DNA of 64,000 nucleotides, taken from contig JASJBE010000011.1 in the NCBI GenBank assembly GCA_030066655.1, forward strand, positions 1-64,000, read 5' to 3'. Made by a program: the position numbers and the translations under genes. Under the pieces are notes generated by a model that was given only the letters and a program-made list of their open reading frames with translations, was not told the DNA's origin and ran no database searches. Positions 8,526 through 64,000 of this stretch are shown in pieces. Within the stretch, counting starts at the first letter, position 1, and each line of letters starts with the position of its first letter. Source of the stretch: Woeseiaceae bacterium (GTDB lineage Bacteria > Pseudomonadota > Gammaproteobacteria > Steroidobacterales > Woeseiaceae).

Positions 8526-9520
8526 TGGTTCTTCTCCGCTGGCCTCGAGCCGTGGCTGACTGCGCTCACCGCGTTGGCCGCAGGCCGGGTATCGATGCTT
8601 AGCGCCTCAAGCGGTGTCATCGGCGGCACGGCGTCGATATCGCCGCGATGAATCTGCTCCGCGATGTCGTGAATGCGCTCTGCAATGTCGGACGGGGCCG
8701 GTGTGATGCTGATGCTGGCGCCCATCGACAGCATGCTGGGGCTCGGGGCCAGGACTGAAACGTCCCGACGGTTGGCCAGCTCGATCATCTCCCGCAAGAC
8801 CCGAGCGCTCAGGACGCGGTTGTCCGGTAGCAGCCAGAAACCGTCGATGTCCGGCGCGATGCGCTTGAACAGGTACAGCGCCTCCTGATCAGAGCCCGCC
8901 TCGATAATGCGTACACTGACCCCGTGCAGCAGAGCCGCCCGCTTCGCTTCAGAAATCAGCGTTTCGTGCCCGGGGCCGATGAGGATGCCGACCGACTCAA
9001 GCGCCGGCTCAGCTTGCTTCCACGCATCGAGCTGTTTTGTAAGCGGCGCGAATGCCTCGACGCCGCGGCTGTTGTCCTGCAGCAGTGCATGTTCGTGGTG
9101 ATTGAAAACATAGCTGAAGATGACCGGCGCGGCCGACATCGCCACCGCCGACCGAGCCGCACGCAGGCCGACGGCAATGACCGCGCTCGCCTGACCATCG
9201 TTGATCAGGCGAAAAGCGCTGACCGGCGGCTGGCTCTTGTCGCTCAGATCGTAGATCGAGATGGACTCAAACAGCTCGGACAGTTCCCTGGCCAGCGCCT
9301 CGTAGGCTTCGTTTCGGTTGGTCAGGACAACGGCGACGGTTGGCGGAACGGTGGGAAGCTCGGTTACAGCTTGTGCCGGCTCCTGAACAGGCGTCACTTC
9401 GGTCGCGGCGGTGACCGGCTCCACGACCACAATCGGTTCGGGCAGGGGTGGCGGCGTCGCACATGCGGACAGTGCCAACACCGCTATTGCCAGCGCAATG
9501 AATTTTGATGGGTTGTGCAT
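8522..9520 (-). CDS. Lipoprotein with ABC substrate-binding-like domain
   Basis: This 332-residue protein starts at ATG 9520 after a strong AGGGGGGA ribosome-binding site. A lipoprotein signal ends in lipobox LSAC, followed by a proline/valine/threonine-rich linker (about residues 22-60) and a periplasmic-binding-protein-like fold of the ABC_sub_bind (PF04392) type. Such a family usually accompanies ABC permeases, but no permease is present. Instead the stop codon overlaps the start of the GGDEF-EAL gene. This suggests a periplasmic ligand sensor feeding c-di-GMP signalling. Family assignment is by overall pattern (segments such as VAVVLTNRN and VGILIGPGH); the ligand is unknown. Confidence 0.8.
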   Translation of the reverse strand: MHNPSKFIALAIAVLALSACATPPPLPEPIVVVEPVTAATEVTPVQEPAQAVTELPTVPPTVAVVLTNRNEAYEALARELSELFESISIYDLSDKSQPPVSAFRLINDGQASAVIAVGLRAARSAVAMSAAPVIFSYVFNHHEHALLQDNSRGVEAFAPLTKQLDAWKQAEPALESVGILIGPGHETLISEAKRAALLHGVSVRIIEAGSDQEALYLFKRIAPDIDGFWLLPDNRVLSARVLREMIELANRRDVSVLAPSPSMLSMGASISITPAPSDIAERIHDIAEQIHRGDIDAVPPMTPLEALSIDTRPAANAVSAVSHGSRPAEKNQ

Positions 9521-9859
9521 TGTCCCCCCTGGCTTCCGTGCCACGGCGCCGTGAGGCATTTAACCTGTTTGCCGAGCCGGTAATCCGACATCCATGCCGG
9601 GTCTTGCCGCCTTGCTGTCGTGCCTGGTTGCTAAGAATCACGTAAATCAACGGAGAAGGGTTCCTCTTTTCACTAAATACGGTCGGCAATAACTCGAATT
9701 ATGTAAGAAGCACAGCGCCCTCCTGCCCCGGGGGCGCAGCCGTTTTTTTCGAAACGCGTGCAGGAGGCCGCTTCAACCGACGGGGAATGTGCCGAATGCG
9801 TATTGTGGATGGCCGCGTTCGCGACTAGCGTTGATACGGGGAATGATCGGAGTTACGTC
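9521..9859. other. Divergent intergenic region, 339 bp
   Basis: The region separates the minus-strand lipoprotein operon from the plus-strand DUF6491 gene. Apart from the hairpin at 9715-9749 I see no gene. An AT-richer section around 9640-9710 is the likeliest promoter zone. A clear CGGAG ribosome-binding site precedes ATG 9860. Confidence 0.5.
9715..9749 (+). terminator. Terminator-like hairpin upstream of the DUF6491 gene
   Basis: GCGCCC (9715-9720) pairs with GGGCGC (9732-9737), and an inner CCCC/GGGG can extend the stem. Seven T residues follow at 9743-9749. It has the form of a rho-independent terminator on the plus strand but lies upstream of, not after, a gene. It could be a leader attenuator or the end of a short transcript. 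Confidence 0.4.
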
Positions 9860-10366
9860 ATGAACACTCGGCTCAGAACCGTTTTGTTGGCGCTGGTCCC
9901 GGCGCTCCTGATGGCGGGCTGCGCGGTTTCGCCGGAGGTCGAAGAGCGCAGGCAGGCTATCGATACGAGCATCGCCGAAATCCTCAGCCAGCCCATCGAT
10001 GTCGACACCTACGCCGAGCCGCAACGCTGCCTGTCGAACAACGAATTCCGCAGCTACCGCGCACTCAATAACCAGTACATGCTTTTCGTCGGCCGCCGCG
10101 GCAAACAGTGGGTCAACCGCCTGCGGTCGAACTGTTTCGACCTCGACCGGGGAGACGTTCTGATCACGCGTTCGTTGAGCGGGGCCCGGATCTGCGACCG
10201 CGATTCCTTCGAAGTCGCTGACTGGTTCAGCTGGCCGTGGTATCGACGCTATCCGTGGCAGTGGGGCATCGGTCTCGGCGCCGGCGGTTCCTGCATGTTC
10301 GGCATGTTCCACCCGGTGACGGATGAGCAGGTGAAAGAGATCGAGGCGGTCATCGAGAACCCCTGA
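9860..10366 (+). CDS. DUF6491 family lipoprotein
   Basis: A 168-residue protein starting at ATG 9860 after a CGGAG site. The N-terminal lipoprotein signal ends in LMAGC. The remainder has the cysteine pattern of the DUF6491 family: a Cys near CLSNNEFRSY, NCFDLDRGD in the middle, an RICDRD segment and GGSCMFGMFHPV near the end. Function is unknown; these are small envelope proteins common in Gammaproteobacteria. It stands alone between a minus-strand signalling operon and the convergent mtrB gene, so context gives little help. Confidence 0.8.
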   Translation: MNTRLRTVLLALVPALLMAGCAVSPEVEERRQAIDTSIAEILSQPIDVDTYAEPQRCLSNNEFRSYRALNNQYMLFVGRRGKQWVNRLRSNCFDLDRGDVLITRSLSGARICDRDSFEVADWFSWPWYRRYPWQWGIGLGAGGSCMFGMFHPVTDEQVKEIEAVIENP

Positions 10367-10401
10367 CAGCGGGCTCATGGATCCCGAGACGGTCGGGAGG
10401 T

Positions 10402-12504
10402 CTAGTCGACCAGCGCGATATCGCGGTCTCCGAAGCGGTAACGGAAGCCTACGCCAAACACCCAGAGATCGTAGTCATAAGGCTCGGCACCGAGTGACAA
10501 CAACGTCGGTATCGTCGCGGGCTCCACGTCCTGAAGCGCCCAGTCGTCGGCCGAGAACTGTTCGTATCTGAGCGTCGCGGTTACTTCAAGATGCTCGGAC
10601 GAGCGGTACTCGACCTCGATTCGCAACGAGTCCAGTTCTGATTCCAGGTCCGGTAGCGGCCTGAACCCGTTCGTGTCGGTCGTAACACCGATCGCACTGT
10701 CGCCGTTGCCGCGCGTGTAATCGAAACGCAGGTCAAGTTTCTCGCCGATGTTGCGCAACGCAAAGCCTATGCCGACATGGTCGAAGTTATCGTCGTGAGC
10801 GGCACTCCAATCCGCGTCGCTGAAACCTGCGCTGCCGAGCTGGGCTGCTTCAATCTGCTCGTCACCGTAGACGAGATAAGCAGAGGCCGTCTCGCTGATG
10901 GCCCAGGTGACGTCCGTCGTCAGCCGCCTCTCTCGCGCATCCGTCATGCCAAGCTGTGAGCGCGAGTAGTTGTCGTCACTGCGATAGAACGTCGCCCCCA
11001 CTGACAGAGGAGCGTTGGGTAACGACGCCGATGCCACGAACTCGACGAACTCCCGATACCGATACGCGAGATTGTATTTTCGGAGCAGCGGGTTCTGTCC
11101 GGCGCTCGCGGTCACACTCGTGTCGTAGCGATCGATGTCTCGCCTCGAAGTCCCGCCGCGCAGGCGAAGGTCGGCCCAACCATCGGGTCTCCAGCGGACC
11201 TGGCCCCAGCCCGTGTCCTCGGTCTGCTCCGCAACCTCCTGGAAATCCCGATCCAGTGTCTTGTAGTCATAGCCCGCGCTCACTCGCCAGTCCCTGAACA
11301 GACGGTATTCGGCGCTGAGGTTCAGCTTGCTGCGCTCGAAGCTGTACGGAATGTTCTGCTCGGCTTCGCCTGAGTTAACAAAGTCGACGATAACCCGCGT
11401 CCACTCGGACTGCGGCGTCGTGTTATCCCGATCGTCGTAGCGATACGCGGCCTTAACCCGCAGGCCGTCCATCGGCCTTGCCGTCCAGGTCAGTGCGAAA
11501 TTCGTTGTATCGACGCTGCCGTCAAGCGTTGCCCTGGGCAACGGCTCCGACGGCACGCTGGCGAAGGACGTGTAAGGCAGCAGAACCTCGTCCTGCTCGC
11601 CGGTGCCGGTCGACAGCGACGCGGTCAGCACCGACCGCCAGGACTCGAACCGGTAGTTGCCCGACAGCGTCAGTTGCTGGAACTCATTGTCAGGCGCCTC
11701 CGCCATGACGTTGCGTTCCGGATTCGTAAAGGTCGAGAACGGCGACTGCCAACTCAACGCATCGTTCTTGTTACTGAAGAATGAACCGTAGTACGCCAGC
11801 GTCGCGCTGCCCTTCGGCAGCCGGAAACGGATGCCGAGGTCGATCTGGTCCGTCTCGTAGTCATGCACCCGCGGCAACTGTGAGGCCTGCGAGAAACCGG
11901 ATCCGGCGATGATGTCGATGCCTTCTTTCCTCTGGCGTCGGAAGTCGGCGAATACGCTCCATCGCTTGCCGGAGAGCCAGTGACCTCCGGCATCGAGAAT
12001 GCGCCGGTCACTCTCGATGGCACGGGTTCGCAGAGAAGCGTCCAGAGCCGTCATGCCCGACGTGCTGCCGGCGCCCACCCATCCGGCGGGAAGGCCCAAG
12101 TTGCCGGTGAAGATGGTCTGCGTCGTATCGAACAGCCGGTACGGTATCTCGCGATACGCGAGGTAGAACCCGTAGCTCCCCTGCTGGCCGCCGCTGATCT
12201 CTGCGAAGCGCGTTGAAAGCCCGAGATCCTCGATCATCCAGTCGAGCTGATAGTCGTCCGTCGAATAGTGGCCGCTACCGTCGAAGTTTCCGTAGGTGCC
12301 CTTTTCGTCATAGCCGGTGCCGTTACCGAAGCGCCCGGCATCGTCGCTGGCATAGGATGCGCCCGCCTCGTACTCGGCGCGGTATCCCGTCTCGAACGGG
12401 CAGGACTCGCACAGCCAGTCACTGGTGTCGACGTCCGCCGCGACGATCGTCGGACTGCCGATCAGTATCGGAAGAGCAAGTGACTTGACGATAGTTCGCA
12501 TCAT
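10402..12504 (-). CDS. mtrB: MtrB/PioB-family outer-membrane beta-barrel of a porin-cytochrome conduit
   Basis: This 700-residue protein matches the size of Shewanella MtrB. It has a Sec signal (about 1-22), then a WLCESCPF segment carrying the CXXC motif typical of MtrB, then alternating amphipathic strands to the C-terminus, as in a 26-28 stranded barrel. MtrB-type barrels insulate a decaheme cytochrome through the outer membrane. The gene follows the decaheme mtrA gene by 9 bp and is third in an mtrC-mtrA-mtrB order. Two adjacent ATGs (12504, 12501) exist; the GGGAG site is better spaced for 12501. The C-terminal residue is Asp, not Phe. Confidence 0.92.
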   Translation of the reverse strand: MMRTIVKSLALPILIGSPTIVAADVDTSDWLCESCPFETGYRAEYEAGASYASDDAGRFGNGTGYDEKGTYGNFDGSGHYSTDDYQLDWMIEDLGLSTRFAEISGGQQGSYGFYLAYREIPYRLFDTTQTIFTGNLGLPAGWVGAGSTSGMTALDASLRTRAIESDRRILDAGGHWLSGKRWSVFADFRRQRKEGIDIIAGSGFSQASQLPRVHDYETDQIDLGIRFRLPKGSATLAYYGSFFSNKNDALSWQSPFSTFTNPERNVMAEAPDNEFQQLTLSGNYRFESWRSVLTASLSTGTGEQDEVLLPYTSFASVPSEPLPRATLDGSVDTTNFALTWTARPMDGLRVKAAYRYDDRDNTTPQSEWTRVIVDFVNSGEAEQNIPYSFERSKLNLSAEYRLFRDWRVSAGYDYKTLDRDFQEVAEQTEDTGWGQVRWRPDGWADLRLRGGTSRRDIDRYDTSVTASAGQNPLLRKYNLAYRYREFVEFVASASLPNAPLSVGATFYRSDDNYSRSQLGMTDARERRLTTDVTWAISETASAYLVYGDEQIEAAQLGSAGFSDADWSAAHDDNFDHVGIGFALRNIGEKLDLRFDYTRGNGDSAIGVTTDTNGFRPLPDLESELDSLRIEVEYRSSEHLEVTATLRYEQFSADDWALQDVEPATIPTLLSLGAEPYDYDLWVFGVGFRYRFGDRDIALVD

Positions 12505-12513
12505 GATCTCCCG

Positions 12514-13470
12514 CTAACGCATCAGCTTCGAGCCGGACGGGTGATTGGAACCGTGCACCTGGCCATGACAGTTCATACAGTTCTGGCCGAGCAGATACTG
12601 TGAGGCCATGCCGGACGGCAGGCCGTCGGCGTCCTGGGGCAGGCTCGGGTGACCCGCCTGTGAGTGGCAACTCTGGCACAGCATCGGGCCGCGCATCGTC
12701 AGCATGCCGGGATGATTGGAGCCGTGCGGATCGTGGCAGTTGCTGCAGTCCTCCGCGACAGGGGCATGCTCCCAGAGATGCGGGCCACGGGTCTCGGCGT
12801 GGCATTCATGGCATGTCTGGTTCAGCGTCTGGCGTACCAGCATTGCATCGAACGTCGTGTCGTGAACGTTGTGGCAGGACCCGCAGTCCATCTTGCCCTC
12901 GTCGACCACGTGAGCGAATGGCTTCAGGCTCTGGGTGCGCTGTTGCTGGTGACAGTCGTAACACACGTTGGCCTGGGTGCTGGTCTGAAGAATCGGGTCG
13001 GAAGCCGCATGGCTCGTGTGGCAGCCGGCGCAGGTGATCGTGTCGTCATCGTGTGCACTACCGTGCCAGCCGAGTCCCGTGTCGGTTCCATGACAATCGA
13101 TACAGTACGCGTTCTGTTCTGCGACGCTTCCCGTTGCGCCCTCGCCGAAAGCAATGACTCCGGGGCGCTCCTGACCGCGCCGGACGCGAGCGCCGTGCTC
13201 ACCGCCGGGACCGTGGCAGGCCTCGCACTGCAGCTGGTCGTGGCCGAACGGCGTCCTGGAGTCGGTCGGTACGGCGTGCGGCGTGCGAAACACGGCCAGT
13301 GTCGCCTGGTCGTCATGACAGGCGAAGCAGGAGTCAGCACCTTTTCGGCTGTAGTCCGGGCCGTCGTCGCCGTCTGCCTGCGCCAGCGACAGGCTCGGCG
13401 ATGCCAGCAACAGCAACCAGCCGATAACAAAGTGAAGCCGATGCCGGCGACTTGCGATCGCCGTCATCAT
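12514..13470 (-). CDS. mtrA: Periplasmic decaheme c-type cytochrome, MtrA/DmsE family
   Basis: A 318-residue exported protein with a Sec signal (about 1-30) and exactly ten CXXCH motifs (CFACH, CEACH, CIDCH, CAGCH, CYDCH, CGSCH, CHECH, CSNCH, CQSCH, CMNCH). This is the number and length expected of MtrA/DmsE decaheme cytochromes. MtrA sits inside the MtrB barrel and carries electrons from the periplasm to the surface cytochrome. No dmsAB-like reductase is present, and the neighbours are mtrC-like and mtrB-like, so the MtrA role is preferred. No clear ribosome-binding site precedes ATG 13470; a second ATG follows directly. Confidence 0.93.
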   Translation of the reverse strand: MMTAIASRRHRLHFVIGWLLLLASPSLSLAQADGDDGPDYSRKGADSCFACHDDQATLAVFRTPHAVPTDSRTPFGHDQLQCEACHGPGGEHGARVRRGQERPGVIAFGEGATGSVAEQNAYCIDCHGTDTGLGWHGSAHDDDTITCAGCHTSHAASDPILQTSTQANVCYDCHQQQRTQSLKPFAHVVDEGKMDCGSCHNVHDTTFDAMLVRQTLNQTCHECHAETRGPHLWEHAPVAEDCSNCHDPHGSNHPGMLTMRGPMLCQSCHSQAGHPSLPQDADGLPSGMASQYLLGQNCMNCHGQVHGSNHPSGSKLMR

Positions 13471-13511
13471 GACTGGTTTGTCCGACTGTCAGTCAGCAGC
13501 AAAAGCACAGC

Positions 13512-15755
13512 TCAATTGTTTAGGAAGCTACTGACGCCGTGCACCTCGCCGACATCGGAGGAGCCACCAGGACCGTGACAGAGCTGGCAGGTTTCCTGCG
13601 GCGCGTTGATCGATCCGTCGGCATTCTTGACGTTGGTCAGATCGAAGAAGCCGCCGTTCTGCTCCATATGCAGCTTGGCCAGGTTGGAGACGTGACAGGT
13701 CGAGCACACGGCAGAGTTCGGTGACGTGACCGTATCGTCGAGCGGCGAGGCGAGGTCAGTACCCGCGCTGGTCGTCGTCGCCAACACAGCATTCGGGTCG
13801 ACCGGGTAGTAGCCGCCGGGCTCATGACAGCCTTCGCAGTTGTTCAGCTTGCCCGGGTAGGCAAAGTCGAACGTGTGCGGGCGGTTGCCGAATCCGCAGA
13901 CGTCGTAGGGCACGCCTGTCGCACCGCCTGCATGCAGCGCGTGGATCATGACCTTCATGTCGACGGTGACGTCGTCCGTACCCAACTCGGTGGCGCACTG
14001 GCCCGCGCGACGATTAATGTCCGTAACGTTCGGCGCGTGACAGGTAACGCAGACCTCGATGTTGTCGGTTCGGTTGTTGCCGTGCATGGCCAGCTGGTTG
14101 TGGCAGTCGGCACACTTCTCAATCGCGACCGCGTTTCTTCGCGGTACGGCGACACCGTCCGTGATCGGCGCGTAGGCGATCGCATTCGGCACGGCGATGC
14201 GCTCACCCGTGCCGTCGATGACCACCGCGGGATGACCGTCAATCGTGACTGCGAGCGATCCCATCGCCGTTGCCGGGACCGGAATCGGTGACGTGACGCT
14301 GAAGACGCCGCCACCCTCATCGGTAGACGCACCGCCGCAGGCCGTCAGCGGGTTAATCGAGATCGGCAGGCCCGGGCTCTTGCCCGAGTCCACGTTGTTG
14401 TACTCGGTGGTATTCCAGGCGATGCCGATCGCGAGGCGGCTCAGGCCAAACGAACAGGTCGTGAACTCGGGGTCGGTCTGGATGTTGTACGGCGCGTCGC
14501 CATTCAACGGGTCTGTGACTGAGAAAAAGACCACCGGTGTGTCGCCGGTACCGGTATTCGTGATGTCGACCACGTTGAACGCGAAGTTTTTGCTCGCTTC
14601 GGCGGTAGCGATCGTGTGCACGACATCGGTTTTCAGGTCGCCACCGTTAACCGTCGAATTCGGGCCGTGACAGTCGGCGCACAGCGTGTCATCGGTAAAC
14701 GTGATGCCGGTGCCGCTAGAACCCGGGTGTCCGCCGTTTGCCCAGTCGATGTCGTCATGACAGCTTCCGCAGGAGTTGCGGGACGGGAACTCCAGCCAGT
14801 GGCCGGCGTCGGGCGTATTCGGGTTCGTGTCATCGTGGCAGGTTCCGCAGTTCCTGACGTCCTGCGAGAACTTGACGTTGGAATAATCGTAAACGGTGCC
14901 GCGGAAGCCGACGATCGTGTAGCCCTCGGTCAATTCAGCGCCGTAATGAATCTTGTGAATCATCGCCGTCATGTCGACCGTACCGCCCCAGGCCTCTGTC
15001 GCGGTGTCACCATCGATCGAGCTCGGGTTGTGGCAGGTCACGCAATAGGTGATGTCGGTCCGCGGGCCGCCGTGGAAACCGAAGACATCGTGGCAGGCAT
15101 TGCAGGTCTGGTTGTCGACGATAGCGCGCGTGAACAGATTGGTCGCCGCCGGATCGTTCGGCACGAAATCGTAAATGCCGTTCGTCGAGATGGGCGCCTG
15201 TCCGCGGATTTCCACACCGATTCGATGCGTCTTTGACCCATCAAACACGGGGCCACCCGAGTAGTCATCGAGCACGCTGGCGAAGGTATACACGTAGGTT
15301 CCGTCGTCATTATCGACAAAGGTACCGGCCGTTGCCGTTTCGGTCGTCGCCTGTGCGTCCGGAATGCCGGCGCTGCTTCGCGTGACGTAGGACTGCCATT
15401 CGCTCGACAGACCGCTGCCGGCTGGCGCCGGTGACAATTGCGAAATGACGAAGCGGAGCTGACCGGCCGCCAGGCCCTTCAGGCCCAGCGTGTCGTCATT
15501 GGTCAAATTGAGCGTTACCGTCGGTGGGCTGCCCGCGGGAATCGTGACATTCTGGATTTCGATATTGATCCGATCGACGTTTTCAATCGGGATTGCCGCC
15601 GACGGGCCGGGATCACCGGTTCCGCCCGTTGGGCCAGCCGGCCCGGCAGGACCCTGAGGCCCGGCGGGTCCATCGTCACCGGAACAAGCAAACAGAAAGC
15701 TGCTGGAAAACAGCAGGAATGCGATTCGCGCAGAGCGACCGTACATTGAAGCCAT
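13512..15755 (-). CDS. mtrC: Surface decaheme cytochrome lipoprotein, OmcA/MtrC family
   Basis: A 747-residue protein with a lipoprotein signal ending LFAC and ten CXXCH motifs in two groups of five, separated by beta-rich domains: the OmcA/MtrC pattern of two pentaheme and two beta-barrel-like domains. In Shewanella these cytochromes sit on the cell surface and pass electrons to metals or other extracellular acceptors. Directly after the lipid-anchor cysteine is a collagen-like run of about eight Gly-X-Y triplets rich in Gly-Pro-Ala, probably a stiff spacer. It is first in the mtrC-mtrA-mtrB operon, with an AAGGGG site before ATG 15755. Confidence 0.93.
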   Translation of the reverse strand: MASMYGRSARIAFLLFSSSFLFACSGDDGPAGPQGPAGPAGPTGGTGDPGPSAAIPIENVDRINIEIQNVTIPAGSPPTVTLNLTNDDTLGLKGLAAGQLRFVISQLSPAPAGSGLSSEWQSYVTRSSAGIPDAQATTETATAGTFVDNDDGTYVYTFASVLDDYSGGPVFDGSKTHRIGVEIRGQAPISTNGIYDFVPNDPAATNLFTRAIVDNQTCNACHDVFGFHGGPRTDITYCVTCHNPSSIDGDTATEAWGGTVDMTAMIHKIHYGAELTEGYTIVGFRGTVYDYSNVKFSQDVRNCGTCHDDTNPNTPDAGHWLEFPSRNSCGSCHDDIDWANGGHPGSSGTGITFTDDTLCADCHGPNSTVNGGDLKTDVVHTIATAEASKNFAFNVVDITNTGTGDTPVVFFSVTDPLNGDAPYNIQTDPEFTTCSFGLSRLAIGIAWNTTEYNNVDSGKSPGLPISINPLTACGGASTDEGGGVFSVTSPIPVPATAMGSLAVTIDGHPAVVIDGTGERIAVPNAIAYAPITDGVAVPRRNAVAIEKCADCHNQLAMHGNNRTDNIEVCVTCHAPNVTDINRRAGQCATELGTDDVTVDMKVMIHALHAGGATGVPYDVCGFGNRPHTFDFAYPGKLNNCEGCHEPGGYYPVDPNAVLATTTSAGTDLASPLDDTVTSPNSAVCSTCHVSNLAKLHMEQNGGFFDLTNVKNADGSINAPQETCQLCHGPGGSSDVGEVHGVSSFLNN

Positions 15756-55546: not shown

Positions 55547-56146
55547 TCAGCGCAGCACGGTTTCTACGAAGTAGTTGAGATCCCGGCGCGCTGCAAGTTG
55601 AGCATCCCAGGGCTCAAAGCGGCGTGAATCGGCACCCCCCGCCTCGATTGAGAGCTGAGTTGATGTCGCGATCATGCGCAACACGTCGGGGGTGACCTCG
55701 TAGTAGGCCTCAACGGCGCTGGCAACGGGGCGGTGGAACGGTGGCCGGGTGAGGCCGGCCGAGTTCGAGGCCCAGCCGGAAAGGCTCAGCGACAAGGGCT
55801 CTCCGTCAGCAAACAACACTACGGATTCCAGCTGGTCACGATGACTCGCCGCGCTGTGTGTGGGCGACGTGCCCCAGCTGCCCAGCCAGACAAAGTAGCG
55901 ATAGTGTCCGCTGCGATTGACCTCGAAGACGCCGAGTTGCATCAGTTGCCGGGCGTGCGCGCCATAGGCTGGCGTCGCATGTACGAACTGCATCGGTCTC
56001 GCAACGTTCGTCGTGGTGACGCCGGTATCCGGGTCGAGATGTTCAACAATGTTCGTGGGAGCGGTTGCGCAACCCGACTGCAATGCCACCACCGTCAGGA
56101 TTGCTGAAATCCGACGGACTCGCGTTGATAGCGGCTTCCCTGTCAT
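55547..56146 (-). CDS. Small lipoprotein at the end of the multiheme operon
   Basis: A 199-residue protein with a signal ending in LQSGC, a weak lipobox with Gln at -3, followed by ATAPTNIVEHLDPDTG. I do not recognise the mature domain, which contains YRYFVWLGSWGT and an aspartate/arginine-rich C-terminus. ATG 56146 lies three bases after the stop of the beta-barrel gene; an in-frame TTG at 56152 would overlap it. Its place as last gene of the operon suggests a role in assembling or anchoring the predicted conduit. Confidence 0.75.
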   Translation of the reverse strand: MTGKPLSTRVRRISAILTVVALQSGCATAPTNIVEHLDPDTGVTTTNVARPMQFVHATPAYGAHARQLMQLGVFEVNRSGHYRYFVWLGSWGTSPTHSAASHRDQLESVVLFADGEPLSLSLSGWASNSAGLTRPPFHRPVASAVEAYYEVTPDVLRMIATSTQLSIEAGGADSRRFEPWDAQLAARRDLNYFVETVLR

Positions 56147-56148
56147 GC

Positions 56149-58593
56149 TCAAAAGAACACCTGGTAGCCAACGCTAAGGAAGTATGACTCGCGGTCCATG
56201 ACCTGGGTTGCCATGTCACGCTGTGAATACTGCTTTCCCATTTCCAACTCGAGCCTGAACTTTCGACTGCCGCGGTATTGCATACGGAACCCGGGCGTCA
56301 GAACCCATTCGTCGCTGCCGTCTCTCTTCATCTCTCGGTAATCGACACGCAGTCGTGGGTTGATGCGCCAGGCGGAACCAAGCGGAATGCGGACGTCCAG
56401 ATTGGTGCCGGACACAGACGCGCTTTCGGATTGCGAGCGCCGGAAGCCGAGCATATACAGATCGCCCTCGCGGAACAGGCTCGTACCGACAACGTTGGTC
56501 GAGTAGTAAGCGTAGTCGCTCGCCGGCAGCTCATCGACACCACCCGACGCCGGCGCAGCCTCGACGCTGGACCAGTTGGCATCGGCGTTGACCTGCCACA
56601 TCGGCGACAACGCGTGCGATACACCGACCGTATACGCCGTGGTCAGCGGTGACCGATCGAGACTCAGCGACCGGATCTCCGACTCCGTCAGCAACACCTG
56701 GAGCTCCGAGAATGAGTCGACGGGTTGGCCAATCATCGCATTGCCGGCGCTCAGGAACGGGCTGTGCCGTAGATCAATCGACGCATGAACCGACGAACGC
56801 TCGAAGAACCGCCAGCTGCCCTGCAGGAATGCGCTCCCCAGTTCGTCGTATTCCGTGTCGTAGTCGATATGCCCCCACAGACTCGCCGTTGATCCGAAAT
56901 AACGAAATTCGGTACCCACGGCCTGGCGGTCCAACATGCCGCTGATGTCCTGTCGCAGGATAAACGCACCGAACTCAAGGTTTTCCAGGACCGGTCCGAA
57001 ATCGACACTGCCACCAACGAAACTGCGCTCCGAATCAACGCCGTCAGCGGACGTGGCAACCGGCAACCCCGCGACGGCGTTCACGACAAAGAGTTCCGAA
57101 GCCTGGTACGCCATGTGCAAGCCGTCGAAACGACCGAGGATGCCGCCATCGTGACGTGACTGACGACCGAGCCGCCCACGCAAACCAGTCTTTGCGTCGT
57201 CGATATCGATGTACGCGTAAGACACGCGGAGTTCGTCCGCCGACGCCTCCGCCCCTTCGAGAAAGTCGTTTCGGTAGCCCGCCGAAAGCCGGCTGCTGAA
57301 GTCAAAGCGTTTCCCACGTCGCCGCGCATCCACATTAATATCGGAATACAACGCCGACTGGCTTACGACCTCGTCTTCATCGTTGAGCTGGTTCGCATCT
57401 CTGCGGTAGTACTGTGACGCATAGATCTGCGTGCGCCAGGCGCTGGCACCCTTTGCCGCCTGCTGGTGTTTCGTCGCCGCTGCTGCCGCGCTGCTATCGC
57501 CGGCCCCGCGCCTGTCGACGGCCAGCAGTGTGGCCAGCCTCTGCCGAATACGCGGAGCGCTCTCGCTATCCGGATAAAGCGCAAGATAACGCTCGTACTC
57601 TGCCTTCGCATGCGCCTTCTGTCCGTTCTTCTCCCTGGCGAGCGCAAGATACTCCTGCGCCTCCTCATAGCGATCATGGCCCCTGACCCGCAGCACCTTG
57701 GTATAGATCTGCACGGCCTGGCTCAGTTCGTGCGCGATCATGCTCTTGCGCGCGGTCGCCATAAGTTCATCGACACGAGCGAGACCGATTGCAGGCAGTT
57801 CAGTATCCGTCGATGCTGCGAATTGCGGCGCAATGGTGGTCGCGGGCTCCGTACTGCGCCGCGAACGCTGTATCCAGGCATTCGGGTAACTCCCCTTCAA
57901 CCTGGCGAGAAGTGCTTCGGCATCCTTTATCGTTTCGAACTCGCCGACACGCAGTCGGTACCAGACTTCCTCAGCAATTCGCACCTCGGTCTCGAAAATT
58001 CTGGCACCTGATAGAAGGTCGAATACCGGCCATTCAGACGCGTCATGCCGGCGTCGGCTCGATGACAAGTTGACCACGTACTTCTCCGGCTTTGAATCAG
58101 TGGTCGTGACGCGGCTCGCCGGCGCGCGGGCCGCCTGGTTTTCGAAGGTCCGCTCGCGTGCATCGCGGACGCGTATAATCAACTCGTCAGAGACGCCGGC
58201 GTCGATTACGTCAAAAATCACCGGCTCCTCGAACACCAGCGTCATCTCCTGACTGCCGGCGTGCATGCCGTTGTAATCGATATCCATCAGCTTGGCTGCG
58301 CTTGCGTTGGACGGCCGAATCAGGGTCTTGGTTCGCATCGACGCGGGCGATATGCCGTCGCATAGAGACGTCGCCTGAATCTGGATACGCAGGCGGTCAC
58401 CGCTGACTCGTGGCACATACTCCAGCACTTCAAAGCGGCATGCCAGTCGGACACGGATTTCCGTCGCGCCATTCGCAGAGCTGATGCTCGCATCGATGAC
58501 AGGACTCGCGGCCGGCACGGATGAGGTCATCAGAAGCAAGCCGGCGATAGCCATCGCGATCGAGGCCCAGTGCGACTTGCGATCAAAAGCCAT
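56149..58593 (-). CDS. AMIN-like/SPOR/TPR protein with C-terminal outer-membrane beta-barrel
   Basis: An 814-residue mosaic. After a signal peptide (about 1-29) comes an AMIN-like beta domain (about 30-150), a SPOR-like domain (about 205-245, WYRLRVGEFETIKDAEALL), TPR-like helices (about 280-365, YTKVLRVRG and YERYLALYPDSESAP) and, from about 390, alternating amphipathic strands ending in GYQVFF, a Phe-terminal signature read by the BAM machinery. AMIN and SPOR domains usually bind peptidoglycan. Its start overlaps the end of the 27-heme cytochrome gene by 11 bp. I infer a barrel serving the two giant cytochromes, in place of MtrB. Domain calls are by pattern. Confidence 0.8.
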   Translation of the reverse strand: MAFDRKSHWASIAMAIAGLLLMTSSVPAASPVIDASISSANGATEIRVRLACRFEVLEYVPRVSGDRLRIQIQATSLCDGISPASMRTKTLIRPSNASAAKLMDIDYNGMHAGSQEMTLVFEEPVIFDVIDAGVSDELIIRVRDARERTFENQAARAPASRVTTTDSKPEKYVVNLSSSRRRHDASEWPVFDLLSGARIFETEVRIAEEVWYRLRVGEFETIKDAEALLARLKGSYPNAWIQRSRRSTEPATTIAPQFAASTDTELPAIGLARVDELMATARKSMIAHELSQAVQIYTKVLRVRGHDRYEEAQEYLALAREKNGQKAHAKAEYERYLALYPDSESAPRIRQRLATLLAVDRRGAGDSSAAAAATKHQQAAKGASAWRTQIYASQYYRRDANQLNDEDEVVSQSALYSDINVDARRRGKRFDFSSRLSAGYRNDFLEGAEASADELRVSYAYIDIDDAKTGLRGRLGRQSRHDGGILGRFDGLHMAYQASELFVVNAVAGLPVATSADGVDSERSFVGGSVDFGPVLENLEFGAFILRQDISGMLDRQAVGTEFRYFGSTASLWGHIDYDTEYDELGSAFLQGSWRFFERSSVHASIDLRHSPFLSAGNAMIGQPVDSFSELQVLLTESEIRSLSLDRSPLTTAYTVGVSHALSPMWQVNADANWSSVEAAPASGGVDELPASDYAYYSTNVVGTSLFREGDLYMLGFRRSQSESASVSGTNLDVRIPLGSAWRINPRLRVDYREMKRDGSDEWVLTPGFRMQYRGSRKFRLELEMGKQYSQRDMATQVMDRESYFLSVGYQVFF

Positions 58594-60730
58594 TGTTCGA
58601 AATCCGATGTTCGGGACCAGGTCGACGCTCTTTGATTGTGGTCAGGCTGCTATCCGTATAGACATGGCAGGCTCCGGTGCAGTCGCGGAGCTCGCTGGCC
58701 GTGTAAGTTCGATCCGGATTCTCGTGCTTCTTATGAGGACCTGACTTGTAGTCGTTCGAGTGACAGGCCGCGCAATCCGGCTGGAACGCCGGGAACGGGT
58801 AGACCACGGTCGGGTTGTTGTTCTGATGGCAGGCCGTGCACTGCAGGTTGCCGGCATGATTGAGCGGCTCGTAAGACAAGGTCGTGTGAGCAAAGTCGGA
58901 CGGCGACCAGCTGACCGTGTTGTGGCAGCTGTCGCACTCCGCCGGTGTCAGGAAATGTCCGGCATTCATGCCCGTCGCGGTGCTGCCGTTGTGGCAATTC
59001 GAACAGGATCCAAGCACCTGGGTGTGATCGACCGTCGTGACCGGCGACCAGGCGATGGTCGAATGGCAATCCTCGCAGACGTTCGTCGTCTGCACGTGGT
59101 TCGAGTGCTTGCCGGTCGCATCGGTGCCGTTGTGACAGCTGAAGCAATTATCCGCAACCGTCGTATGGTCGAAGAAGGCCGGCGTCCAGGCCACCGTCGT
59201 GTGGCAGTCGTCGCAGTTGTTGCCGCTGGTGATATGTGTCGGGTGCTTACCGGTGGCGGTCACCCCATCGTGGCAGGATCCGCACGTGCCAAGTACCTGC
59301 GTGTGGTCCACGGTCGTCGCGGGCGTCCACGCGTTCACGTTGTGGCAATCTTCGCAGACGTTGGTCGACTGGATATGGGCCGGGTGCTTGCCGGTCGCAT
59401 CAACGCCGTTGTGGCAATTGCTGCAGTTACCGGAAATGTTGACGTGATCGAAGTTCGCCGGCGTCCACGCGACGGTCGTGTGGCAGTCGTCGCAATTGTC
59501 GCCGCTGGTGATATGGGCCGGGTGTTTGCCAGTCGCTACCGTACCATTGTGGCAGCTACCGCAGGTGCCGATGACGTCGTTGTGGTCGACAGCTGCCGGG
59601 GTCCAGGTCAGCGTCGTATGACAACTGTCACAGGTCTCACTGCTCAGGATATGCGTTGCATCCTTACCGACGGCCGTCGTGCCATCGTGGCAGGAACCGC
59701 AGGTACCGAGAACCTGCGTGTGGTCGACCATTAGCGCAGGTGCCCAGACGTTCGTCGTGTGGCAGTCCTCGCAGGTGTCAGTGGTCTGTATGTGGCCGGC
59801 GTTCTTGCCGGTCGCATCGACGCCGTTGTGGCAGCTACCGCAGTTGCTCGCAATATTCTGATGGTCGAAGTTAGCGGGTAGCCATGCGGCGGTCGAGTGG
59901 CAGTCCTCGCAGTTATTGCCGCTCGAAATGTGGCCGGCGTTCTTGCCGGTAGCCGTGGACCCGTTGTGGCAGTTGCCGCAGCCATCAACGATGCCCGAGT
60001 GGTCGAAGAAGGCGGGCGCCCATGCAGTCGTCGTGTGGCAGTCGTCGCAGGTATCGCTGCTCTGAATGTGATTGACCGTTTTGCCCGTCGCGACCAGTCC
60101 ATCGTGACAACTGCCGCAAGTGCCGAGTACTTGTGAATGATCGACACGCGTAGCTGGCGACCAAAGCGTCGTCGAATGGCAGTCTTCACAGACATTGGTC
60201 GTCTGCACGTGCGTAACGTTCTTGCCGGTCGCGGTATTGCCGTTGTGGCAGCTGGCGCAGTTGCCGAATACGTTGGCATGATCGAAGACGGCCGGTACCC
60301 AGGCCGCGGAGTTGTGGCAGTCGTCACACTGGTCTCCTGACACAAGATGGTTCGGGCTTTTTCCGGTACTGCGAATTCCGTTGTGGCAGGTGACGCAGGA
60401 TCCGGACACGGCGCTATGATCCATGTACGGGACGATGCTCCACGATGACGTGATGTGACAGTCGGAGCATTCGCCGCTGGTCAGTACGTGACCGGGCGGC
60501 TTCGCCGATGCACGCACGGTTCCGCCGTCGGAGTGGCAGCTTTCGCAACTTGAGCGAGTTGCCGTGAAGTTCGCGTTTGCATGACAACCCTCGCAACTGA
60601 CGCTCGAGTGCGCACCGTCGAGCGCGAAGCCGGTGCTCAGGTGATCGAAGTCCGGGTTCTGTGCATAGGCCGCGCCGCCGATGACCGCCCACAGCATCAC
60701 GATACGCAACAGGCCACGACGCAACTTCAT
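58583..60730 (-). CDS. 27-heme repeat cytochrome c
   Basis: A 715-residue exported protein (Sec signal about 1-23) with 27 CXXCH motifs and one CX3CH (CTGACH) near the C-terminus. Most of it is a regular repeat of 46-47 residues containing two CXXCH and two extra His, one in ATGKxxxH and one in FDH or VDH. Equal numbers of motif and free histidines predict bis-His haems in a linear chain. The C-terminal 90 residues depart from the repeat. Its ATG overlaps the 21-heme gene stop. It resembles extracellular nanowire-type or periplasm-spanning cytochromes; the location is inferred. Confidence 0.92.
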   Translation of the reverse strand: MKLRRGLLRIVMLWAVIGGAAYAQNPDFDHLSTGFALDGAHSSVSCEGCHANANFTATRSSCESCHSDGGTVRASAKPPGHVLTSGECSDCHITSSWSIVPYMDHSAVSGSCVTCHNGIRSTGKSPNHLVSGDQCDDCHNSAAWVPAVFDHANVFGNCASCHNGNTATGKNVTHVQTTNVCEDCHSTTLWSPATRVDHSQVLGTCGSCHDGLVATGKTVNHIQSSDTCDDCHTTTAWAPAFFDHSGIVDGCGNCHNGSTATGKNAGHISSGNNCEDCHSTAAWLPANFDHQNIASNCGSCHNGVDATGKNAGHIQTTDTCEDCHTTNVWAPALMVDHTQVLGTCGSCHDGTTAVGKDATHILSSETCDSCHTTLTWTPAAVDHNDVIGTCGSCHNGTVATGKHPAHITSGDNCDDCHTTVAWTPANFDHVNISGNCSNCHNGVDATGKHPAHIQSTNVCEDCHNVNAWTPATTVDHTQVLGTCGSCHDGVTATGKHPTHITSGNNCDDCHTTVAWTPAFFDHTTVADNCFSCHNGTDATGKHSNHVQTTNVCEDCHSTIAWSPVTTVDHTQVLGSCSNCHNGSTATGMNAGHFLTPAECDSCHNTVSWSPSDFAHTTLSYEPLNHAGNLQCTACHQNNNPTVVYPFPAFQPDCAACHSNDYKSGPHKKHENPDRTYTASELRDCTGACHVYTDSSLTTIKERRPGPEHRISNNGF
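58920..60330 (-). repeat. 279-bp (93-codon) four-haem super-repeat within the 27-heme gene
   Basis: Counting from one CDDCH to the next equivalent CDDCH gives spacers of 23, 23, 24 and 23 residues, total 93. Copies of the DNA around the CDDCH codons recur at 279-bp intervals (for example about 59199, 59478 and 59757). About five super-repeats cover haems 5-25. Sequence identity between copies is high, so repeat-number variation is plausible. Confidence 0.85.
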
Positions 60731-62295
60731 TGCAGTGACCTCACGTCCTTGAAGCTCGACACGTCGTGGCAGCGACCGCAGTCGAAGCCAAACTCTCCGT
60801 CATGGATATCGTCGTTTCTGTGGCAGTCTCCGCACCGGTGTGCCTCGTGTTTCAGGCTCGAAAGTGGCTGGCGATGACAATCTGCACACGACACGTCCGT
60901 GTGTGCGCCGCGCAGTTCGTACTCGGTCTGCGTGTTGTGGTCGAACAACCACAGGTCCCACGCAACCGGGTTGTGGCAGTAGCCGCAGTTGTCGTCGAAC
61001 GAATCACCGTGCACGTCGTCTTCGAGATGGCAGCTGCCGCACGCGGAGTCTGTCTCAGCGAATGCGTGGGTCTCGTGGCAGGCCTCGCATTCCGCGTTCG
61101 CGTGTTCGCCTAGCAGCGGGAACTTCGTAAGGCTGTGATCGAAGAACGGCGCCGGATCCCACGCCCCCTGCTCGTGACAGTCCGCGCATTGCTCGCCGAG
61201 CGAGCCCTTGTGCGGGTCATCGTCGAGGTGGCAGGAATTGCACTGATCGCCAGGCGACTGCTCGAAGACCGGCTCGACATGGCAGTCGACGCAGCCGACC
61301 TCGACGTGTGCACCGAGCAGCAGGAAGTTGGTGTCGCGATCGTGATCGAAGCGAATGTGGTCCCAGCGCTCGCTTGAGTGACAGCCATTGCAGTCATCGC
61401 CATTGTGGCCCTTGTGCTCGTCGTCCTCGCGGTGGCAGCTCACGCAACCGGTCTGCAAGTTATCACCGAACGGCTCATCGCTGTGGCAGTCGCCACAGAC
61501 CAGTTCAGCGTGACGCCCGATCAGGTCGAAGGTCGTGTCACGTGCATGGTCGAAGCTGGTGTCGTCCCATCCCAGCGGGTTGTGACAGTTGTCGCACTGC
61601 TCGCCGCTGCGGCCCTCGTGAACGTCGTTATCCGCGTGACAGCCGAAACAGGTCGTCGGCGTGTTCTGGTGCGTCTCGTCGGCGTGGCAGTCGAGACATT
61701 CAGCGTCGAGGTGCTTGCCGATCAAAGAATAGCCGGTGACCTCGTGATCGAACTCGACATCCTCCCACCCGGCCGGTACGTGGCAACTCGCGCAGTCTTC
61801 GCCGAGAAACCCACGATGTACGTCGTCTTCCGCGTGGCAATCGAAGCACTCGGCGGGCGCATCGCGATGCTTTTCAGCAGCGGCGTGGCAGGCGCCGCAT
61901 TCGGCTTCTCCGTGCTTGCCCGACAACTCGAAGTCGGTGAAAGCGTGATCGAAGCTCACCGGATCGAGCCCCACGATGTCGGCCTTGCGGCCTTCATGGT
62001 CCGTGTGACAGACACTGCACTGCTCGTCGCCGACGGTTGGCGACTTGCCGTGAAAACCCGCGGCAGTCGAGAGGTCAGCTGCAACGTCTTCGTGGCAGTC
62101 CAGGCAGAGCTGGCGTTGAGCCGCTCGATCGAAGCGCTTGTGGCAGGCATTGCACTCGGTCTCGATCTCGACATGCGCTTTGGCGACATCGCCCGGCATA
62201 ACGAGGGACTCGATCGACTGCGCCAAAACGGCGCCTGGAGCAGCCATGACAATCACCGCAAACAACCTGGATATGTGGCGTCGGTACTCATTCAT
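60727..62295 (-). CDS. 21-heme repeat cytochrome c
   Basis: A 522-residue exported protein (signal about 1-26) with 21 CXXCH motifs. After the first few haems it settles into repeats of about 65-70 residues with three CXXCH and three further histidines (FDH, a GxH in LIGRH/LLGAH, and DDxH), which again predicts bis-His ligation. It is highly acidic. ATG 62295 was chosen since it directly precedes a signal peptide; upstream in-frame codons lie within the membrane protein gene. It ends in an ATGA overlap with the 27-heme gene. The likely role is a periplasmic electron wire between membrane and barrel. Confidence 0.92.
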   Translation of the reverse strand: MNEYRRHISRLFAVIVMAAPGAVLAQSIESLVMPGDVAKAHVEIETECNACHKRFDRAAQRQLCLDCHEDVAADLSTAAGFHGKSPTVGDEQCSVCHTDHEGRKADIVGLDPVSFDHAFTDFELSGKHGEAECGACHAAAEKHRDAPAECFDCHAEDDVHRGFLGEDCASCHVPAGWEDVEFDHEVTGYSLIGKHLDAECLDCHADETHQNTPTTCFGCHADNDVHEGRSGEQCDNCHNPLGWDDTSFDHARDTTFDLIGRHAELVCGDCHSDEPFGDNLQTGCVSCHREDDEHKGHNGDDCNGCHSSERWDHIRFDHDRDTNFLLLGAHVEVGCVDCHVEPVFEQSPGDQCNSCHLDDDPHKGSLGEQCADCHEQGAWDPAPFFDHSLTKFPLLGEHANAECEACHETHAFAETDSACGSCHLEDDVHGDSFDDNCGYCHNPVAWDLWLFDHNTQTEYELRGAHTDVSCADCHRQPLSSLKHEAHRCGDCHRNDDIHDGEFGFDCGRCHDVSSFKDVRSLQ

Positions 62296-62318
62296 CTCGT
62301 GGCGGCGTTGGTTCTTAT

Positions 62319-63215
62319 TCAATACATGTGCACGGCGAGCACATGGACGAGGGCTGAGATCACCATCATGTAGAAAAGCGGTAGATGCAGGATGTGCCAA
62401 AGCGCGAACAGCCGTTCGAACAGCGTGAACTGGGCGATGCGGCGAACGAGGCGGATATACCGGCCGATGTAGCGATAGCTCGTCCTGCGCAGCTTCGCCA
62501 GGTCGGCGGCGATTGTGTGGGACTCGGCCGCACGAGCTTTGAGCTCACGGCGCGCAGTCCGTCTGAGCTGCAACCAGGTTGCGTAGCTCCGCAGCGTCCA
62601 GACGAGGCTGCCGCGGACGGACAGGGAACCGCGCAGCGCACAACCCTGGATATCGGCAGAAACCGCCTCCAGGCGCTGCGTCAGCTCGGGCATCAACACT
62701 GCTAAGCCATGACTCTGCTCGACCGAGTCGGCAAGCTCTTTCTGCAGAGCGCGAAGACTAGTCTTCTCTCCATACAGACCGCGGTGGATGCCAGCGTAAA
62801 TGTAACGACCGATCACGCCACTTGCGGCAACGAGCAGCATGCAGAACAGCGCAAAACGACTATTGAACGAGCCGAGCTGGAAGTTGCTGTGGTAAAGCAC
62901 GAGTACAGGGGCAATGACACCCAGTACCATGTGTGTGCGAAACCAGCCCGGAATCGCTCCAAGGAACTTCAACGCGCGGTAGCGTTTACGTAGCGGGTAG
63001 AGCAACAGCAGGAGCATCATGCTGCCGCCGACGATTCCCAGCCAGTAGCCCAGACCGGCCTCCGCCGTAATCCAATCTCGATCGCGCAGCAGCCAACCGA
63101 CGCCGAGAGCAAGAATTGTGATCGAGTAGCCGTAAAAGGCGTTGCTCTTTCGTTCGCGCCGTGGCTTCGCGACGCTGCCGGGAACGGCACTGGAATCGAC
63201 TACAACCTCATTCAT
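62319..63215 (-). CDS. Predicted b-type cytochrome-like membrane protein
   Basis: A 298-residue protein with about four transmembrane helices in the first 145 residues, a long basic helical loop (about 150-255) and a final helix near the C-terminus. Histidines sit in helix 3 (RTHM ... LYHSNF) and in the last helix (LWHILH ... ALVHVLAVH), placed as haem b ligands would be in b561- or ferric-reductase-like proteins. I do not recognise a named family. It precedes the 21-heme gene, so it may bring quinol electrons to that cytochrome. Confidence 0.75.
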   Translation of the reverse strand: MNEVVVDSSAVPGSVAKPRRERKSNAFYGYSITILALGVGWLLRDRDWITAEAGLGYWLGIVGGSMMLLLLLYPLRKRYRALKFLGAIPGWFRTHMVLGVIAPVLVLYHSNFQLGSFNSRFALFCMLLVAASGVIGRYIYAGIHRGLYGEKTSLRALQKELADSVEQSHGLAVLMPELTQRLEAVSADIQGCALRGSLSVRGSLVWTLRSYATWLQLRRTARRELKARAAESHTIAADLAKLRRTSYRYIGRYIRLVRRIAQFTLFERLFALWHILHLPLFYMMVISALVHVLAVHMY

Positions 63216-64000
63216 TGGTCGATGTTCCTACTCGGTTGGTCTCGTCGAGAACGAGCTGCACAACGCCATCCATCATTGCTGAGACTGGTTCACTCTGTGT
63301 TTCGAAAGCCCCGACAGCATCGGTTGCAAGTCCGGATCGCGATAGACGTGCACTGACGATGAGCGTGTCGTAGTCAGCGATAGAGGTGCCGGCCAGCAGG
63401 GCGTCACGATCAGACAATGAAAAGCTGAACGGCAGATCGACGGCGGGCCGTCGGATTGCCGCAACCGGCATTCGCTGATCACTCGATGCTTTGGCGAAAA
63501 TGAAGATCGTGTCCTTGGCGCTGACACTGGCGGCAAGACCGTCACTGAGCGCAATGTGCCCCCGAATTGCAGGACCGTCGCCAGCAGGCACAGTCGCCGC
63601 CGATTTCCCGCCAACGTTCCCGACTGATTCCATCAACGCATCGGACTCAAAGCTGTTGTAAGTCATTCCGAGCGCCTTTGCTTTCGCGTATGCGTCTCTC
63701 GCTTTGTCAGGCTGCCCGAGGTGTCGATAGGACTTCGCAAGCAGGAGCCAGCTGCCGGCGTCGTCTGGCTCGCGTTCGAGTCGCGCCTCGAGCCCCGCCA
63801 GCAGGCTGTTGACAGAAGCGACCGATTTTTTGGACGACGTTTGTTCCTTCGCGAGATAGTTCGGGTAGAGCTTTTGGTGAGGCGGTTGCGCGGTCATCGC
63901 CTCAGGCGAACCGAGCAGCGCGTATCCGCCGACGGAGACAACCGGGATGATCACCATGGGCAACGTAGAGCCCGACAGCCGGCGAACCTTCAACAGATCT
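63208..64000 (-). CDS. CcmI/CycH-like cytochrome c biogenesis protein, 5' end outside window
   Basis: About 264 codons are seen and the frame is open at the right edge, so the start may lie beyond; an internal ATG at 63957 precedes a single membrane helix. A TPR segment follows (about 75-115 in the visible part, SWLLLAKSYRHLGQPDKARDAY), then a C-terminal domain typical of CycH/CcmI: GHIALSDGLA, DTIFIFAKA, LPFSFSLSDRDALL and VSARLSRSGLA. CcmI chaperones apocytochrome c to the haem ligation complex. Its stop overlaps the next gene by 8 bp, linking it to the multiheme operon. Confidence 0.85.
   Translation of the reverse strand, partial: DLLKVRRLSGSTLPMVIIPVVSVGGYALLGSPEAMTAQPPHQKLYPNYLAKEQTSSKKSVASVNSLLAGLEARLEREPDDAGSWLLLAKSYRHLGQPDKARDAYAKAKALGMTYNSFESDALMESVGNVGGKSAATVPAGDGPAIRGHIALSDGLAASVSAKDTIFIFAKASSDQRMPVAAIRRPAVDLPFSFSLSDRDALLAGTSIADYDTLIVSARLSRSGLATDAVGAFETQSEPVSAMMDGVVQLVLDETNRVGTSTNE

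Follow-up and report, generated by a model that had tools for sequence, protein, structure and literature searches.

A PCC3 porin-cytochrome cluster in a Woeseiaceae bacterium and a co-occurring flavo-iron-sulfur protein as its candidate inner electron partner

We analysed 64 kb of DNA (hereafter the window) from a Woeseiaceae bacterium (assembly GCA_030066655.1, contig JASJBE010000011.1, positions 1 to 64,000). The contig belongs to a draft genome and is 83 kb long, the window being its opening 64 kb. The study concerns a cluster of six tightly packed open reading frames on the minus strand at 55547-64000, which we identified as a PCC3 cluster. PCC3 is a predicted outer-membrane porin-cytochrome conduit described in 2017 (He et al. 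2017, PMC5566968). In the 5′ to 3′ direction, the six genes encode a CcmI-like protein (g6), an inner-membrane protein (IMP, g5), a 21-heme cytochrome (g4), a 27-heme cytochrome (g3), a barrel protein (g2) and a putative lipoprotein (g1). A seventh gene, g7, adjoins g6 divergently as the next gene upstream of the cluster. The features are as follows.

55547-56152, minus strand: g1, putative lipoprotein of small size that closes the cluster; probable ATG at 56146; matches no family of Pfam or NCBIfam
56149-58593, minus strand: g2, PCC3 porin of 814 amino acids (aa); SPOR match; AlphaFold2 model
58583-60730, minus strand: g3, repetitive multiheme cytochrome; 27 CXXCH and one CX3CH
60727-62295, minus strand: g4, 21-heme cytochrome; 21 CXXCH
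62319-63215, minus strand: g5, IMP of 298 aa; two WX3HX13H and SGXXG; five predicted transmembrane (TM) helices
63208-64000, minus strand, running on to its start codon at contig position 64074: g6, cytochrome c assembly protein resembling CcmI/CycH; Ig_CycH match over the cut-off
Contig 64377-65690, outside the window, plus strand: g7, predicted iron-sulfur (Fe-S)/flavin adenine dinucleotide (FAD)/NAD(P) oxidoreductase with a predicted anchor in the inner membrane; motifs and domain matches

A preliminary description, made from the letters alone, had presented the six genes as overlapping or nearly so, and all six frames were indeed found on the minus strand at this place. The g6 gene is cut by the window edge (the whole protein, starting at the ATG at contig position 64074, has 288 aa) and overlaps the IMP gene by 8 bp. 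The IMP stop codon is separated by 23 bp from the likely start of g4, the ATG at 62295, where a signal-peptide-like N-terminus begins; ahead of this ATG, the g4 frame stays open as far back as a TTG at 62400, within the IMP gene. Further along, g4 and g3 overlap by 4 bp and g3 and g2 by 11 bp, and 2 bp would lie between g2 and g1 if g1 starts at 56146. This gene order is not a matter of chance, since the same order recurs in relatives.

The published PCC3 IMP has about 300 residues, five TM helices, two WX3HX13H motifs and an SGXXG motif, and the published heme medians are 21 for the periplasmic and 34 for the second cytochrome, at 22-39 residues per heme; the published porin is a beta-barrel unrelated to MtrB or OmbB (PMC5566968). 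Published heme counts of the second cytochrome run from 10 (PMC10734462) to 85 (PMC5566968). The window IMP carries W91-H95-H109, SGVIG at 132 and W273-H277-H291, and its five hydropathy peaks (25-43, 54-72, 96-114, 121-139 and 275-293) correspond to helices in the structure model, with the putative heme-binding motifs on TM3 and TM5 as in the PCC3 description. Moreover, the 21-heme cytochrome, the residues per heme and repeats of the cytochromes, and a barrel that does not match MtrB_PioB all agree with PCC3; the 27 hemes of the second cytochrome are below the published median yet inside the published range. Given these matches in motifs, heme counts and gene order, the locus is a PCC3 cluster, and we rejected the earlier reading of it as a new conduit. 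What stood of that reading is a candidate conduit, which we hold to be likely, built from families other than MtrCAB, tightly packed and recurrent in its order; its novelty and its supply "from quinol" did not.

The window resembles published PCC3 in its porin, high-heme second cytochrome, 21-heme cytochrome, IMP of about 300 aa and conserved order. It differs in that the literature, as far as consulted, lists four genes, whereas the window and most of its relatives add g7, often g6 and sometimes g1. PCC3 is treated further in PMC10734462, PMC12442390, PMC12016527, PMC8788666 and PMC13386937, and PMC12442390 calls its function untested; PCC3 has been a candidate since 2017. The words CcmI, SPOR, AMIN, TPR, ferredoxin and FAD do not occur in the main text of He 2017, and we found no paper that unites a multiheme cytochrome, a SPOR domain and a porin. 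No g7-like part of PCC3 is mentioned in the main text of He 2017, PMC10734462 or PMC12016527, and g7 as a PCC3 partner was not found in the literature searched (figures and supplements were not covered in either case). What appears new beside this literature is chiefly g7; g6, the SPOR domain and the constant heme spacing of g4 (see below) come second.

The g7 protein consists of a hydrophobic N-terminal helix, two Fe-S motifs and then FAD/NAD(P) domains of the thioredoxin-reductase/YpdA type. A hydrophobic stretch ahead of the Fe-S motif was present in all 68 testable g7 copies from the named loci, which are the best 80 of 183 loci by IMP similarity and not a random sample (Sideroxydans lithotrophicus ES-1 and Leptothrix cholodnii SP-6 are absent from these 80). 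The helix is followed by RHVQRER, and these flanking charges, read by eye, point the g7 domains to the cytoplasm. In an alignment of 41 sequences, C59, C62, C65, C69, C93, C99 and C103 are invariant. This alignment (A4) comprises the window g7 and 40 of 63 references that had all been picked for having the Fe-S motif, so the invariance of the first motif is partly due to selection; the exact first motif is absent from 3 of 67 g7 sequences (L103, L110 and L118). An invariant His96 replaces a Cys of the standard second motif. Residues 129-172, which lie ahead of the FAD domain, match GltD 406-450, the C-terminal end of that protein; this suggests, at the level of sequence, that the FAD domain is circularly permuted. 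The FAD/NAD(P) domains of g7 resemble YpdA and TrxR-type ferredoxin-NADP reductases, which differ in that g7 has a fused Fe-S domain, the hydrophobic N-terminal helix and the C-terminal GltD/YpdA segment before the FAD domain. No redox-active CxxC was found in the NAD domain of 67 full-length g7 sequences, the one flagged case being the ferredoxin motif of an N-terminally extended frame, and g7 is therefore unlikely to be a thioredoxin reductase.

The co-occurrence of g7 with PCC3 was assessed in three genome sets, which overlap (at least in G000 and G344), so that their counts are not additive. In the first set (99 genomes: the window's own, 60 of the genus and 38 of the order), g7 at E ≤ 1e-60 was present in 24 of the 29 genomes with a PCC3 porin and in none of the other 70. 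In the second, 299 genomes drawn across the phylum, a full IMP (>290 bits) occurred in four genomes and a full-length g7 (>600 bits) in the same four; in nine others, longer proteins contain just the later portion of g7 (140-236 bits), and IMP matches in another 24 are short or partial. In the third, 120 genomes of another family of the class (IMP at E ≤ 1e-40, g7 at E ≤ 1e-90), the IMP was found in seven and g7 in eight, with all seven in common; in the eighth g7 genome (G415), a 10-kb contig has g6 and g7 but no other gene of the cluster. Among the named loci, 75 of 80 have g7. Two of the five without it lie on contigs that end too early (L086 and L120), and the other three, from Woeseiaceae (L090, L104 and L113), have PCC3 without g7 despite sequence on both sides, their genomes likewise lacking g7. 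In two further PCC3 genomes without g7, the cluster is cut at the IMP by a contig end (G063, L038) or only the barrel was found, on a 16.7-kb contig (G090). In a large protein database, where 8000 candidates were scored, at least 7999 proteins match g7 at E ≤ 1e-60; the g7 family is thus common, most of these matches having had no check for PCC3.

The position of g7 relative to the cluster is variable. It lies divergently upstream in 68 named loci and upstream on the strand of the IMP in seven (six Alphaproteobacteria records and one labelled Deltaproteobacteria), and most clusters of the other family have it past the barrel, as does G140. Because g7 stays with the cluster while the gene order changes, the link is more than an inherited neighbourhood. 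We rejected g7 as an unlinked coincidence in G140, G437 and G456, where g7 and the IMP are on different contigs but the IMP contig stops inside g3 and a barrel gene is on the g7 contig. In the PCC4-like locus of G252 (L157), the gene for a protein with FAD/NAD(P), cNMP and Fer4_11 domains immediately precedes those for a related IMP (69 bits) and a 10-heme cytochrome. Taken together with the g7 data, this suggests that such IMPs may exchange electrons with NAD(P)-type flavo-iron-sulfur proteins. PCC4 (He 2017) is thus similar in having an IMP of similar pattern with an FAD/NAD(P) and Fe-S protein beside it, while it is described with three smaller cytochromes and no extracellular one, in contrast to the one 21-heme and one 27-heme cytochrome of the window.

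Several side observations concern the surroundings of g7. A Sel1/ankyrin-repeat protein is encoded beside PCC3 in 28 of the 80 named loci by profile search (e.g., L076:7856-9760). An ankyrin-repeat gene is the only gene between g7 and the IMP in all seven same-strand loci, comes after g7 and on its strand in many other loci, and occupies the divergent position in L090 and L104, which are without g7. In one genome of the other family (G443; L194, L195 and L196), the PCC3 IMP and g7 each occur twice.

All 80 named-locus IMPs have the two WX3HX13H motifs and SGXXG, and H95, H109, H277 and H291 are invariant in a 64-row alignment; the IMP is predicted from these residues to bind two b hemes. In its structure model (predicted local distance difference test, pLDDT, of 88.5), the core superposes on SpNOX with a root-mean-square deviation of 2.8 Å over 114 residues and on cytochrome b561 with 3.8 over 123 residues, both weak structural matches; SpNOX is the sole NADPH oxidase in the structural match list (VIA) for the IMP. 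A Foldseek fold search with the IMP returned nothing useful, the window IMP has one weak unrelated Pfam match only, and no ferric reductase domain appeared among the families listed for 64 IMPs (Pfam, E ≤ 1; 25 of 39 families listed). By positive-inside charges, judged by eye for g7, the 129-residue loop of the IMP and the catalytic part of g7 would both be cytoplasmic. Short IMP relatives (L158-L172), mostly of 193-261 aa, adjoin 7-10-heme cytochromes in a smaller two-gene module. These stretches carry no full g7 (one 22-bit match, L164), which rules out g7 as the companion of every such IMP.

The cytochrome g4 has 21 CXXCH motifs at 24.9 residues per heme, and g3 has 27 CXXCH and one CX3CH at 26.5 residues per heme with a periodicity of 23 or 24 residues; both begin with a Sec signal peptide as judged by eye. 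A heme-motif DNA pattern run against the genome of the window produced a single match, which was uninformative. Exactly 21 CXXCH motifs were found in 70 of 74 complete g4 homologues from the named loci (18 in two, 22 in one and 24 in one). In these 70 proteins the first and last heme motifs are 459 ± 5 residues apart (range 454-486), and in 59 of them all 20 heme spacings lie within one residue of the window copy, at 38-60% identity. The 18- and 24-heme forms differ by the loss or gain of three motifs, which in L072 and L102 make up a complete three-heme module, and the 24-heme form was met in the other family of the class too. In contrast, g3 spans 804 ± 359 residues with 5-53 motifs in 52 complete homologues. 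Its heme count is odd in 46 of them, as expected if g3 grows by two-heme repeats. Most g3 homologues carry no lipobox. The PCC3 model predicts g4 to be periplasmic and g3 extracellular. Because the length and spacing of g4 are fixed while the length of g3 varies, we read g4 as spanning the periplasm; the pattern fits, though it does not prove, a g4 that bridges a fixed distance and a g3 that is free to vary. As a side observation, contigs of three draft genomes break off inside the g3 gene.

The g2 protein had been described as a mosaic AMIN/SPOR/TPR barrel. Of these parts, SPOR was recovered (28.1 bits against a Pfam cut-off of 21), TPR stayed below its cut-off, and AMIN gave no Pfam match, though the model shows a beta domain at that place. 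SPOR was found in 36 of 46 g2 homologues (Pfam, E ≤ 0.01), so peptidoglycan attachment would be a frequent, though predicted, feature. The AlphaFold2 model of g2, built from a 46-row alignment, has a pLDDT of 87 and a predicted template modelling score of only 0.56; it shows a beta-rich N-terminal domain (33-144), the SPOR region, TPR-like helices (271-380) and 22 barrel strands (386-813), and the C-terminal residue of the barrel is Phe. Occ porins, pilus ushers and AlgE are among its best PDB neighbours. MtrB has 26 strands. With assumed shear numbers, the backbone diameter would be about 40 Å for 22 strands compared with about 47 Å for 26, and the narrow closed pore that the preliminary description had named as speaking against a conduit did not come out of this model. 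Among the 80 named loci, the small g1 was recovered in 34, and several of the contigs end ahead of it; the window copy has an imperfect lipobox by eye, and 20 of 33 complete homologues have a lipobox-like N-terminus. At the other end of the cluster, g6 matches Ig_CycH with 81.9-82.3 bits (cut-off 27) and TPR_CcmH_CycH with 31 bits, below the cut-off of 42. A second CcmI/CycH-type (Ig_CycH) protein is encoded in the same genome (G000:C93:2926-3207).

A standard mtrCAB set had been noted about 40 kb from the cluster, and we located it at 10402-15755.

10402-12504, minus strand: mtrB; MtrB_PioB over the cut-off
12514-13470, minus strand: mtrA; DmsE-family decaheme model over the cut-off
13512-15755, minus strand: mtrC; OmcA/MtrC model over the cut-off

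Downstream of mtrB, the frame at 9773-10378 has no family match and that at 8522-9559 has a weak ABC substrate-binding match. MtrCAB, MtoAB and PioAB do in principle the same job as PCC3, with a cytochrome, a barrel and a cytochrome across the outer membrane. However, as the preliminary description had observed, the barrel and cytochromes of the window cluster look different: g2 has no MtrB_PioB match, and g3 and g4 fall under the cut-offs of the MtrA and MtrC models. We therefore rejected the cluster as an MtrCAB paralogue. Among the 99 genomes, a PCC3 porin was found in 29 and a substantial MtrB in 46 (both in 20, PCC3 only in nine, MtrB only in 26 and neither in 44); MtrB had matched in 53, of which seven with only short matches of about 19-30 bits were dropped (G007, G035, G055, G060, G061, G072 and G076). 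P values for these counts take no account of relatedness. The PCC3 gene order recurs in relatives, including the MtrB-free genomes G048 (L030), G059 (L037) and G074 (L039), and so passes the check for recurrence named in the preliminary description.

We propose, with a probability of about 0.42, that the PCC3 locus carries electrons across the whole envelope and that g7 likely feeds the conduit from NAD(P)H. Electrons would pass from NAD(P)H to g7, whose FAD and Fe-S clusters would face the cytoplasm, and from g7 to the two b hemes of the IMP, with H95/H277 near the cytoplasm and H109/H291 near the periplasm. The IMP would deliver them to g4, spanning the periplasm, and g4 to the 22-strand barrel g2, which its SPOR domain would fix to the cell wall; the barrel would hand them to the 27-heme g3 outside the cell, and g6 would help to attach the many hemes. 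Overall, the arrangement would be like a split NADPH oxidase with a multiheme wire on the far side. The likeness to NADPH oxidases and ferric reductases lies in the two HX13H pairs on TM helices and, if g7 is the donor, in a cytoplasmic flavin/NADPH module. On the other hand, the window IMP has no sequence match to them, five helices and a large loop that is probably cytoplasmic, and its flavoprotein is of the TrxR type, with Fe-S clusters and on a separate chain. The metals concerned have redox potentials of about 0 V or above, and NAD(P)+ of about -0.32 V. We prefer outward flow as the main direction because inward flow from metal to NAD(P)+, against the membrane potential, would be strongly uphill. 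That PCC3 would further act as an NAD(P)H-powered exporter in place of an iron-oxidation uptake route, with g4 as a wire of fixed length and an outer heme wire tuned per species, so that cells could discharge reducing power from the cytoplasm onto minerals and bypass the quinone pool, is a tentative extension that we regard as possible and rather doubtful.

The published model of PCC3, proposed by He et al. 2017 (PMC5566968), runs inward: an extracellular donor, Fe(II) or another metal, gives electrons through the two cytochromes and the IMP to the quinone pool, and g7 would be an accessory. It is the rival that survives best, and we consider it unlikely. PCC3 is reported in many iron-oxidising Gallionellaceae and in Leptothrix, and the IMP of one CL21 copy is described as up with iron-oxidising ability (PMC12442390). 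However, PCC3 genes are reported to be downregulated on Fe(II) in strain ES-1 (PMC8788666), which is at odds with uptake from Fe(II), and on magnetite the PCC3 proteins are given at low to middle percentiles with no clear induction. Moreover, the inward model does not account for a flavoprotein of NAD(P) type that co-occurs so tightly with PCC3, and the window bacterium also has mtrCAB, which a Woeseiaceae paper takes, in the part consulted, as iron reduction.

The preliminary description had instead drawn a route from quinol to the cell exterior. In this reading, the IMP would oxidise quinol, the electrons would go outward to minerals and g7 would have no place in the chain; this too we hold to be rather unlikely. 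Two-heme membrane cytochromes often exchange electrons with quinones. Such exchange is also argued for in He 2017 (PMC5566968). Among 64 IMPs, one has a weak match to Ni-hydrogenase cytochrome b561, and PCC3 is kept without g7 in three genomes. Against this, g7 is kept with the cluster through different gene orders, and the large loop of the IMP suggests a cytoplasmic partner. The supply from quinol is thus unsupported as stated: g7, which lies past the window edge and so was out of sight of the preliminary description, accompanies the cluster and speaks for NAD(P)H on the inner side.

It is improbable that g6 and g7 form a maturation pair, in which g6 would be an apocytochrome chaperone and g7 would keep the roughly 96 heme-binding cysteines reduced. 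The CcmI-like g6 is often close to g7, and the FAD/NAD domains of g7 are nearest to thioredoxin reductase and YpdA. Yet the NAD domain of g7 has no CxxC, dithiol transfer needs no Fe-S clusters, and g6 was undetected in 26 of 80 named loci compared with only five for g7. Finally, a role of the cytochromes mainly as a periplasmic electron store or as partners of a soluble reductase, which would suit the very dense heme packing, at about 25 residues per heme, the mostly lipobox-free g3 proteins and the capacitor role put forward in PMC10734462, is very improbable given the conserved barrel, the IMP-g4-g3-g2 order in most loci that reach the barrel, and a frozen g4 length beside a free g3 length, which fits a part spanning a fixed distance.

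Returning to g7 as the NAD(P)H-dependent inner partner, the cofactor, direction and energy yield of PCC3 would all change if this is true. The fixed heme spacing of g4 gives a quantitative reason for its periplasm-spanning role. Whereas the earlier proposal led from an extracellular donor to the quinone pool, g7 as a partner would make the direction of electron flow through PCC3 testable.

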